This document shows, piece after piece, positions 1 to 60,702 of a stretch of 64,000 nucleotides of DNA. Source of the stretch: Methanosarcina sp. MSH10X1 (GTDB lineage: Archaea; Halobacteriota; Methanosarcinia; Methanosarcinales; Methanosarcinaceae); NCBI RefSeq assembly GCF_004099695.1, contig NZ_SCHL01000001.1:248001-312000 (forward strand), in the 5' to 3' direction. Every line of letters begins with the position of its first letter. The first letter of the stretch is position 1. Under the pieces are notes generated by a model. That model was given only the letters and a program-made list of their open reading frames with translations, had not been told where the DNA came from and did no database searches. Position numbers and translations under genes: made by a program.

Positions 1-258
1 AATACTATATAAAGCTATGTAACGCATAGCGTAGGCTGACTAAAAACAGACAATCTCGTAATTTGGCTATAAAGTACCCATTTGTGGGCGCGCAAATACC
101 TATATGACCTGTGAGAATATAAACCTTACTGTCTTTATATAGCGATTTTATTTTGCGGCAAGTACCGCTAGCAGGGTGTAGGGGTTGACTGATACTAGAA
201 AAGAGTGAATAAAGCTATTTTATAGCTTTTCTTTGAAAAACAAGGAAATTTTGACAGG
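1..258. other. Gene-free AT-rich flank left of the repeat array
   Basis: No credible coding region is visible. Several short inverted repeats occur: GCTATG/CATAGC at 14-30, CCCA/TGGG near 77-90, and AAAGCTAT/ATAGCTTT near 212-230, about 30 bp before the first 37-bp repeat. The stretch could be a leader for the array or the remainder of the element continuing left of the window. It contains no full copy of the 37-bp repeat, so the array starts at 259. Confidence 0.5.
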
Positions 259-692
259 GTTCTTATGGTAGTTGTAGGGTATGTAGCATAGCTACATATC
301 TATCCTTTTGTGAGACATAAGGGAGTTGTATAGTTCTTATGGTAGTTGTAGGGTATGTAGCATAGCTACTCATCGGGTGGAGGTTTTCTCCACCTGATTG
401 TACATGTTCTTATGGTAGTTGTAGGGTATGTAGCATAGCTACTAATCTGAAAAAGGTTTGCCAAATTTGGCGAACCTTTGTTCTTATGGTAGTTGTAGGG
501 TATGTAGCATAGCTACGCAGTAAACCAACGGTACCAAAATGGTACCGTTGGTGGAGGGAGAACAAGAGAAAAAATAGCAAGTTCTTATGGTAGTTGTAGG
601 GTATGTAGCATAGCTACACGGTTTTGCAGAAATCTGCGAACCCGTTGAATTTCCTGTTCTTATGGTAGTTGTAGGGTATGTAGCATAGCTAC
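259..692 (+). repeat. Six-copy 37-bp direct-repeat array with hairpin spacers
   Basis: Six identical 37-bp repeats lie at 259-295, 333-369, 406-442, 480-516, 581-617 and 656-692. Each begins GTTCTTATGG, has GTTGTAGGGTAT in the middle and ends with the small palindrome GTAGCATAGCTAC. Spacers are 37, 36, 37, 64 and 38 bp. Unlike CRISPR spacers, every spacer and the segment after the last repeat carries its own inverted repeat: CCTTTTGT/ACATAAGG, ATCGGGTGGAG/CTCCACCTGAT, AAAGGTTTGCC/GGCGAACCTTT, ACCAACGGTACC/GGTACCGTTGGT (perfect, 5-nt loop), ACGGTTTTGCAGA/TCTGCGAACCCGT, and CTATCAA/TTGATAG. No cas genes are present; the neighbour is a tyrosine recombinase ending 80 bp away. Array geometry is directly seen; function is unknown. 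Confidence 0.95.
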
Positions 693-760
693 CTATCAAT
701 TTGATAGATATTGATAGATATTGATAATTAAAAAGAGAAAAACAGGAAGGAGAGAAGGAA

Positions 761-772
761 GTTACAGGGTAT
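761..772 (+). repeat. Repeat-core motif at the integrase stop codon
   Basis: GTTACAGGGTAT matches the centre of the 37-bp repeat (GTTGTAGGGTAT) at 10 of 12 positions. It abuts the integrase stop codon at 772-774. It is in the same orientation as the array repeats and opposite to the copy at 2096-2107. It may be a recombinase binding or attachment-site core. Confidence 0.6.
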
Positions 773-2094
773 TATTCATCTATTTTCATTATTTTTCCCA
801 TCTCTGCTTTAAACCTGCTTTGACTTTCATTTTTAGGCTTCATCTCTTTTACAAAGTCTATTATATCTTGCTTTATTGCCTCATTACGTTCTTCCTCTGG
901 CATAGCCTGGATCTGCATTCTTCTTAACTCCATTTTAGCATTCATGAGTTCCAAGCCATCCACAAAATACTTCTCAGCAAGTGCTTTAAGCCTCTGGTTC
1001 TCGTCTTTTAAGTTGCGCCACTCTTGAGTATCAACAATATCAACTGCTCTAGTTAATGTCAGATAAGGACAGTACCTAGCATACAACTTCTTCTGGTCCT
1101 CCACAGAGAGCCTGAGATAAGCAGAAACCACTTTGTTTAACTTATGCCCCATCCATACCTCAACTGCTTGGTGGTCGCAACCTGCATTAATTAATGTGGA
1201 ATAGAAATATCTTCTTAAATTGTGTGCCCTGACTAGTGTATAACTGTTTTTTGGAGAATTCATTTTAGCTTTAAGTGCAATACTTCTATAAATCTCCATG
1301 AATGTATTTCTCTTTAATTTACGTTCTTCCTCATTCTTGTTTGTCAGCCATGTATCAGGAATTCTGGATAGAATGAATAGATATCCATCATTAGAAAAGA
1401 TGCGTTGTTTCTCTAGCTGTCTTTCTCTGTTTGGGTCATTGTCCTTAGTGACTCTCTTTTGTCTGAAGTCCAGATATGCTCTAACAGCCCTGGAAGCTTC
1501 AGGTGATAGGAAGGTTACAAAGTCCACTTGTGTTTTGCCTCTTCTAATCTCAATTGTTGTGATTTCGGTTTCTGGATCGTACACAAGGTCTTTTATTTTT
1601 AAGTTTCTTATTTCATTAGCTGAGAGTCCAGATGATACCCCAACCAACAGAACCGCCTTCTCCAGCGCGTCACACACGTTTAACGCGCTTATCAAGTCTT
1701 CCTTAGAGGGGATTTTAACGTTCTCTTCAAGTGGCGCGACTTCCTTTTCGCTTCTAGGAAGGTTAGGTAATTCAACATCTAATTTTTTATAAAAACTCTT
1801 AACCACAGCAAGCCTTAACTTAATCGTATTCTGAGAAATGTCACATTGATTAAGATATTCAATATAACTGAGCAGGTGCCTTCTTACTGTCCTTCTCTTT
1901 AACAGAATGCCTTTTTCAGCTTCGGTATCTGCTTCCTCTATCAACTCACTTGGTGCTTTCCCTAAGAAGTCGCAATAACCTTTTAATGATTGAAGATAAC
2001 TATTTCTAGTCATTGGTTTAGGATTGATTAAGGTAAACCAGTCCTTAACTGCCTCATCTTTCTTTAACTCCTCTATCTCAAAAATTCTTCCCAT
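772..2094 (-). CDS. Tyrosine recombinase/integrase
   Basis: A 440-residue tyrosine recombinase expected to cut and rejoin DNA at specific sites through a 3'-phosphotyrosine. An N-terminal SAM-like core-binding region (about 1-115) precedes the catalytic domain. Visible catalytic residues are the beta-hairpin Lys188, the HNLR box (His291, Arg294), GH (His317) and nucleophile Tyr326 in SAYLR. The usual first Arg, in a GLR-x-x-E-I box, appears as Ser158 in GLSANEI, which is odd and could reduce activity or reflect an archaeal variant. A charged C-terminal tail of about 100 residues follows the catalytic Tyr. The start is the ATG at 2094, one base from the inverted core motif at 2096-2107; no clear ribosome site is seen, so it may be leaderless. 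Its 3' end faces the repeat array. Family call is firm; specificity is inference. Confidence 0.93.
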
Positions 2095-59727: not shown

Positions 59728-59787
59728 AAAACCAGGTCTGAAACTTCTAAGCCCGGCTTAGCAGATTTCATTCGCAAGCCATTTACA

Positions 59788-59895
59788 AAAAATCCTTGAC
59801 CGCAAGCCTTTTAAAAAAAGGCTTGAGCGAAAACCTTTTAAAAAAATCCTTGACCGCAAGCCTTTTAAAAAAAGGCTTGAGCGAAAACCCCCTCT
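59788..59895. repeat. 54-bp tandem repeat, two copies, with hairpin
   Basis: Two copies (period 54 bp) each contain CAAGCCTTTT/AAAGGCTTG, the same hairpin as the terminator at 23960, followed by AGCGAAAACC. They immediately follow the acyltransferase gene. Confidence 0.88.
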
Positions 59896-59910
59896 TGCGG
59901 GTGACAACCG

Positions 59911-60325
59911 GTGCAACGCAAACTTTTTCAAAAAAAGTTTGATCAAAAACGCATGATTTATCTAAACCGGTGTAACCGGAGCGTGATAAACCGGTGCAAC
60001 GCAAACTTTTTCAAAAAAAGTTTGATCAAAAACGCATGATTTATCTAAACCGGTGTAACCGGAGCGTGATAAACCGGTGCAACGCAAACTTTTTCAAAAA
60101 AAGTTTGATCAAAAACGCATGATTTATCTAAACCGGTGTAACCGGAGCGTGATAAACCGGTGCAACGCAAACTTTTTCAAAAAAAGTTTGATCAAAAACG
60201 CATGATTTATCTAAACCGGTGTAACCGGAGCGTGATAAACCGGTGCAACGCAAACTTTTTCAAAAAAAGTTTGATCAAAAACGCATGATTTATCTAAACC
60301 GGTGTAACCGGAGCGTGATCGACCG
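59911..60325. repeat. 83-bp satellite, five exact tandem copies
   Basis: Copies begin at 59911, 59994, 60077, 60160 and 60243; a sixth starts at 60326 and breaks off. Each unit includes the stem AAACTTTTT/AAAAAGTTT followed by GATCAAAAACG and the paired CCGGTGTAACCGG block. The hairpin is a compensated variant of that in the 54-bp repeat. No open frame spans it, as 83 is not divisible by three. Confidence 0.95.
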
Positions 60326-60702
60326 GCGCAACGGTTTCGGGTCAACGCTTGCATTCAGGAGAGCCAGGCAAAAAGAGAGGTTTACAGAACTATTTTTTAT
60401 GTTTTATGTTTTATTTTTTATTTTTTATGTTTTATGTCTATGTTTTGTGTATTACATTTTATGTTATAGAGGGCGGGGTGAGGGGAACCATGAGGGTTGA
60501 TTACGGGATGAGGGGAGAAAAAAACAGCAGAATGGGTTCTTCGTATGAGAGTATAGAATATAGAATTTTGAGGGGATTATATAAACAACTGAGTACGAAA
60601 GCTGTAATTTGATTCACGACTTTGAGCTGGTGCGGCAACCTTCAGGAAACCACAGTAAAAATAAGAATTAATACAATCTTTGGAAAATCATTTAAGAAAA
60701 GA
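60326..60702. other. Low-complexity gap before tRNA-Ser
   Basis: A T-rich run of TTTTATGTTTTATG repeats (60392-60465) is followed by a purine-rich stretch. No gene is supported. Confidence 0.4.

Follow-up and report, generated by a model that had tools for sequence, protein, structure and literature searches.

A CRISPR-shaped array in a Methanosarcina provirus whose palindromic spacers probably include pieces of ParB-like mobile-element genes

What kind of element has the geometry of a CRISPR locus and yet holds spacers that fold into hairpins? The question is raised by a short locus near the start of a 64,000-nucleotide stretch of Methanosarcina DNA (the window, whose position 1 is position 248001 of a 411-kb contig). 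Six mutually identical 37-bp repeats (GTTCTTATGGTAGTTGTAGGGTATGTAGCATAGCTAC) start at positions 259, 333, 406, 480, 581, and 656 and enclose spacers of 37, 36, 37, 64, and 38 bp. This is the layout that the original prediction had described, and identical direct repeats separated by unique spacers of nearly uniform size (36–38 bp, with one of 64 bp) are what is expected of a CRISPR array. The locus and its surroundings comprise the following features, in window positions:

134–141, plus strand: TTTATATA, resembling an archaeal TATA box (suggestive only), in an AT-rich region 5' of repeat 1
259–295, plus strand: repeat 1 of 6, 37 bp, with a self-pairing 3' end (GTAGC-ATA-GCTAC)
296–332, plus strand: spacer 1, 37 bp, inverted repeat at chance level
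333–369, plus strand: repeat 2
370–405, plus strand: spacer 2, 36 bp, palindrome ATCGGGTGGAG-GTTTT-CTCCACCTGAT
406–442, plus strand: repeat 3
443–479, plus strand: spacer 3, 37 bp, palindrome AAAGGTTTGCCAAATTTGGCGAACCTTT
480–516, plus strand: repeat 4
517–580, plus strand: spacer 4, 64 bp, perfect palindrome with 13-bp arms, core GGTACCAAAATGGTACC
581–617, plus strand: repeat 5
618–655, plus strand: spacer 5, 38 bp, reading TVLQKSANPLNF
656–692, plus strand: repeat 6
693–730, plus strand: end segment, starting directly at the repeat border; a palindromic repeat unit with dispersed copies in the genus
757–772, plus strand: candidate remnant of a seventh repeat (13 of 16 positions; shuffle P about 0.01; a weak match)
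772–2094, minus strand: tyrosine recombinase, 79 bp from the last repeat
2128–2139: right att core (TATTGTCGTTAT); the left copy is at contig positions 225580–225591

The palindromic unit of the end segment (CTATCAATTTGATAGATTTTGATAGATATTGATAG) is an intergenic repeat dispersed across the genus (also seen at L041, L052, and L078), with two to five spaced copies per site.

All five spacers and the end segment had been described as palindromic, with perfect inverted repeats of up to 12 bp. Folding against 500 shuffled sequences bears this out for spacers 2, 3, 4, and 5 (better than 500, 500, 500, and 499 shuffles, respectively). A dyad is also present in the end segment, where the fold is weaker (matched by 17 of 500 shuffles), and the claim fails for spacer 1, whose unremarkable fold is matched by 46 of 500. 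Strong perfect stems are indeed present, the longest measuring 13 bp rather than 12 (spacer 4). Palindrome scores are 5.5, 8.5, 11.5, 13, and 8.0 for spacers 1–5 and 7.5 for the end segment. As a control we used the host's own CRISPR array, whose 50 spacers were taken from the contig that carries cas1; none of these spacers scores above 7, and among random 37-mers from the region 0.4% attain 8.5. Given the shuffles and the host-spacer control, we regard the palindromes as real rather than due to chance (spacer 1 excepted), and the host's genuine CRISPR spacers, which are not palindromic, agree with the proposal that the contents of this array were selected for palindromes. A scan of 124 kb of the contig for arms of at least 10 bp revealed two unusual clusters in the surrounding provirus, namely the array and a ParB-like open reading frame (ORF) 4.5 kb from it. 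The third cluster of strong palindromes in the scan, at window positions 59801–60273, is a tandem repeat. It is part of a series of hairpin-bearing tandem repeats (59773–60333) that has an acyltransferase-like gene on one side and a tRNA gene on the other; a 27/54-bp repeat is followed there by an 83-bp unit with CAAACTTTTTCAAAAAAAGTTTG, present in 5.2 copies that are 99% identical.

The array is located inside a 24.6-kb provirus or integrated element (contig positions 225580–250139) that is inserted in an ion-channel gene. The att core TATTGTCGTTAT is a 12-bp direct repeat with copies at contig positions 225580 and 250128, and we conclude that the provirus splits the ion-channel gene because the N-terminal part precedes the left copy and the remainder continues from the right one. 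Besides the ParB-like ORF, the provirus encodes a Prim-Pol protein, a D5-type helicase, a 1560-residue protein, and a packaging-type ATPase-like protein. Also encoded within it is another tyrosine recombinase, shorter than the one beside the array (contig C11:229631-230278; L008:1631-2278, minus strand), and just beyond the left border of the element are 28-bp tandem repeats (TAAGAAATAACTAT...; C11:225036-225277; L060:17036-17277).

The tyrosine recombinase that had been placed about 80 bp from the array is the integrase of this provirus. Its proximity and the hairpin payloads would suit an integron-like arrangement, with the 37-bp repeat as the place where the adjoining recombinase takes up small hairpin cassettes. 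Such a system would recombine at the sites of the array; here the att core sits at the provirus ends, the right copy 34 bp upstream of the integrase start codon, with the array at the opposite end of the integrase gene, and the core is absent from the 37-bp repeat. The idea of an array of recombination sites for this enzyme is thus not upheld. Furthermore, the integrase scores 30 bits against the integron-integrase profile TIGR02249 (cut-off 265), and identical full-length repeats are not attC sites. The search of related genomes for the repeat and the integrase that had been proposed as a check was carried out: the repeat is absent from the 100 genomes, and none of the integrase homologues is flanked by such an array. 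Array detection around these homologues returned only WD40, HEAT-type, and other coding repeats. We set the integron-like explanation aside as very improbable, because the att core lies elsewhere and the integrase homologues have no arrays beside them.

Where, then, do the spacers come from? Spacer 3 is 36/37 identical to a linker in the provirus' own ParB-like ORF (contig positions 243649–243684, minus strand). The match ends at the spacer borders, and the 36 matched bases comprise an 8-base flank (AATCTGAA) followed by a 28-base palindrome. The ORF is a tandem of degenerate units, each with a different palindrome at the equivalent place, just before the helix-turn-helix (HTH) motif (V/N)(D/N)TREE. 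The palindrome beside the first unit has the core GGTACCAAAATGGTACC in common with spacer 4, and the ParB-like gene in two other genomes of the genus carries yet another palindrome at the equivalent place in the linker. In one related genome the linker palindrome encodes GLQKSANL, which resembles the reading VLQKSANP of spacer 5. For spacer 5, a library search identified 20 bases (GTTTTGCAGAAATCTGCGAA) that are identical in the linker palindromes of ParB-like genes on two viral contigs (L236 and L240), including the base that forms the arm mismatch; these two best matches score 20, against maxima of 12 for shuffled sequences.

In spacer 4 the dyad is followed in frame by codons for GGRTREKIA, which corresponds to the beginning of the ParB-like HTH motif (DTREEIAK in the family, and GRTIEKIS at the equivalent place in one viral member, L148). 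The resemblance is confined to the motif, and a similar motif arises by chance in 54 of 20000 random 64-mers read in six frames. The core of spacer 4 is present in viral contigs, outside recognizable ParB-like genes, and none of them contains the full dyad. On the strength of the TREKIA that follows the dyad, spacer 4 likely also derives from the ParB-like gene family. Spacer 2 has a 17-bp core dyad (GTGGAGGTTTTCTCCAC) that occurs in 22 viral contigs (L265–L286), often at two or three sites per contig, as a dispersed operator would, and not within recognizable ParB-like genes on those contigs. No related gene was found for spacer 1. A profile of the gene family's protein, run on the short translated spacers, scored none of them above controls, and this includes spacer 3, which matches its gene over 36 of 37 bases.

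Spacers 3–5 are all in coding orientation, and, judged from sequence comparison, at least two and probably three of the five spacers are pieces of one kind of mobile-element gene (ParB-like), palindrome included. The evidence comes from a single array in which one spacer matches its source exactly (in the array's own element), another matches strongly over part of its length, and a third matches by motif; one protospacer is available with both flanks. Spacers drawn from mobile-element DNA are expected of CRISPR arrays, and spacer 3 (36/37) and spacer 5 (20 bp) provide them. Spacers matching viruses or plasmids, with protospacer motifs, had been named as what would overturn the view of the locus as something other than CRISPR; sequence matches came to light for spacer 5, in viral ParB-like linkers, and for spacer 3, in its own provirus, and not for spacer 1. 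The argument that spacers captured from foreign DNA should not be palindromic throughout loses its force, as spacer 3, and very probably spacers 5 and 4, carry the palindrome of a gene family. A CRISPR-type origin is therefore compatible with the palindromes, and it is our leading reading.

We then examined the palindrome in this gene family. A consensus of the HTH region retrieved 29 IMG/VR viral contigs, and an alignment of those retrieved 271, of which 80 were taken. The family member examined in full joins a ParB-like N-terminal half, which contains the HTH, to an MT-A70 methyltransferase domain at the C terminus; this domain may modify the linker dyads. The best palindrome of a region of about 275 bp falls in the coding linker before the HTH in 59 of 62 viral genes; scores reach at least 8.5 in 50 of the 62 genes, and 43 different sequences are represented (examples are found among the IMG/VR loci L130–L260, such as L131:2001-2276, L226, and L238). 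When 22 genes were compared with 400 synonymous recodings each, most palindromes were equalled by fewer than 2% of recodings, with a few genes unexceptional (e.g., L139 and L146). Once the palindromes are aligned on their centers, covariation of the arms is evident: at distances of 6 to 8 and 10 to 14 from the center, Watson-Crick pairs are kept above shuffled pairings while the bases change. The P values of this covariation are inflated by the relatedness of the sequences, and a firmer measure is how many different pair types occur; template switching at palindromes could be an alternative source of the compensating changes. By recoding and covariation, the dyads of the gene family thus behave as symmetrical sites under selection, as expected of ParB-binding sites.

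Arm mismatches in the family (six G-T and 13 A-C) show no G-U bias, and many of the dyads have centers too tight for RNA loops. The linker palindrome points to a DNA dyad because an mRNA hairpin would tolerate G-U pairs and no such bias is seen; as far as sequence can tell, it looks like a DNA site. These observations also bear on the idea that the array produces structured small RNAs from its plus strand, mimicking the hairpin of ParB-like mRNAs, or acts as stacked terminators. In its favor, RNA of the plus strand folds far better than shuffled sequences (z −9.75) with hairpins stronger than those of the minus strand, and the coding orientation of spacers 3–5 would fit such mimicry. The minus strand folds well too, however (z −9.55), no Rfam family reaches threshold within the array, and the mismatches in the gene family tell against an RNA hairpin. 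Stacked terminators, which had been among the initial suggestions, are unlikely given that few units have a T run and that the best terminator-like match overlaps the start of the repeat. Altogether we consider an RNA-level role improbable.

Searches for relatives of the array itself were negative. The 37-bp repeat has no other copy in the genome (allowing up to three mismatches), no exact match in the viral or genome contigs, and no match in phages or plasmids by blastn. No array of at least four copies was detected in the 80 viral contigs with ParB-like genes. The expectation that no cas gene lies nearby was borne out, in that the provirus proteins tested gave no convincing match. The single Cas1 of the genome is encoded on a different contig from the array, and the host CRISPR repeat is unrelated to the array repeat; an array repeat common to a cas locus, or adjacent cas genes, would be expected of a CRISPR array. 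None of the host's 50 CRISPR spacers matches the provirus convincingly (best 26/37). One other CRISPR-shaped array, near a homologue of the D5 helicase in genome G013, was rejected as a relative, its repeat being unrelated (shuffle P 0.29) and its spacers of ordinary length not palindromic. This array (L104:11353-12230) has 12 repeats of about 36–37 nt and one double-length spacer with a hairpin, and it abuts the 3' end of a TnpB/Cas12f-like gene (L104:12198-13502, minus strand) whose family has many copies in related genomes.

We tentatively favor, as plausible though short of probable, the interpretation of the locus as a provirus-borne orphan CRISPR-type array whose spacers sample the linker dyad of ParB-like genes from mobile elements. 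Gene pieces would have been captured by a process that duplicates the repeat, as Cas1-Cas2 does, and either the capture or selection would have favored pieces with a dyad. The array would then be a store of dyads by which other mobile elements are identified, and the stored dyads might serve as guides against those elements via an effector not encoded in the provirus. Capture of the Cas1-Cas2 kind is suggested by the uniform spacer size, the identity of spacer 3 over its full length, and the six unchanged repeats. The geometry with six identical repeats supports a CRISPR-type array, as do the match of spacer 3, which reaches 8 bases past the dyad on one side, and possibly the degenerate terminal repeat. 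Weighing against it, a palindrome is not a normal selection target of Cas1-Cas2-type capture, spacers 1 and 2 have no assigned source, and a single such array is known. CRISPR spacers are also expected to spare their carrier, and spacer 3 matches the provirus, which is something that an active DNA-targeting array should avoid. The missing cas genes, the private repeat, and this self-match speak against an active guide array in the host, and the array may be inactive in its present host.

The same observations could be read as a bank of protein-binding sites, in which ParB-like proteins would use the linker dyads as operator- or parS-like sites, several of which the provirus has gathered in an array. 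They would act as decoys that titrate the proteins of rival elements or as a compound partition or regulatory site, with the 37-bp repeat as a spacer or as the site of a second protein. Every identified payload is a dyad, and the dyads of the gene family, with covarying arms, no G-U bias, and tight centers just before the HTH, have the character expected of such sites. A copy of the provirus' own site (spacer 3) would be harmless, and the tandem ParB-like segments of the provirus hold a second cluster of different dyads. On the other hand, the uniform spacers of 36–38 bp are left unexplained, non-dyad flanks were copied too (8 bases in spacer 3 and 28 in spacer 4), one protein is unlikely to bind dyads of differing sequence, and spacer 1 has no clear dyad. 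We place a bank of this kind on the unlikely side, while recognizing that it and the CRISPR-type interpretation share the same facts and differ only in inferred function.

Alternatively, the locus could be inert, either as an old CRISPR array or as something left behind when hairpins or cruciforms are processed, with preferential cutting and capture of palindromic DNA. The failure to find partner genes among the provirus proteins tested and the self-matching spacer 3 are compatible with this, and the end segment, which is a palindrome dispersed in the chromosome and not part of a ParB-like gene, fits a general capture of palindromes. Six unchanged repeats suggest recent activity or selection instead, and a single gene family, as opposed to palindromes in general, is the source of two or three of the five spacers; we regard an inert orphan as decidedly unlikely.

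If the CRISPR-type interpretation is correct, the memory would be restricted to one feature of one gene family, and we found no CRISPR or integron of this sort described. A rather doubtful extension is that the hypervariable coding dyad in ParB-like genes is an identity tag of the element and that some viruses keep an array of captured tags with which to recognize or exclude rivals; the array would then be a CRISPR-shaped memory aimed at one site and not at random DNA. Independent of the array, the linker palindrome is a strong signal for a site that some protein reads, perhaps the product of the gene itself; such a site could account for self-discrimination among mobile elements. In the open-licence literature we met neither palindromic spacers nor the linker dyad, and we found no described role for either the array or the linker palindrome.

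Several known systems resemble parts of this locus. Like integron attC cassette arrays, it has a tyrosine recombinase beside an array of folding DNA, and it differs from them in that the integrase site is elsewhere, the repeats are identical, and the units are without genes. As in ParB-parS and KorB operators, the source genes encode HTH proteins of mobile elements with ParB-like character and the payload is a DNA dyad, whereas an array of such sites with spacer-like capture was not found described. A survey of ParB-CTPase-fold proteins reports MT-A70 fusions in archaea, and its main text makes no mention of palindromes (PMC12704722). TIGR arrays (TIGR-Tas) consist of two alternating 8–12-nt repeats with 9-nt spacers, or of box C/D stem-loop units, and are associated with a Nop-domain Tas protein, some loci being operonic with a parB-like gene (PMC12045711). 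They share with our locus tandem arrays in viruses, sometimes variable palindromes, and a parB-like link (PMC12045711), a resemblance and not a membership; here one constant 37-bp repeat alternates with spacers of about 37 bp, unlike the TIGR repeats, and no Nop domain was found among the provirus proteins scanned (small ORFs in part). Lastly, the mini-CRISPR arrays carried by archaeal viruses have one or two spacers, host-like repeats, and no self-match (Medvedeva et al., 2019; PMC6858448). The present array is similar to them in its association with an archaeal virus, its lack of cas genes, its viral or mobile-element spacers, and the presence of a spacer source near the array (PMC6858448); it is distinguished by its larger number of spacers (five), a repeat that is not otherwise known from the host, a match to its own provirus, and the dyads that most of its spacers carry. 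The form of the array is already known, and it is the contents that are new.
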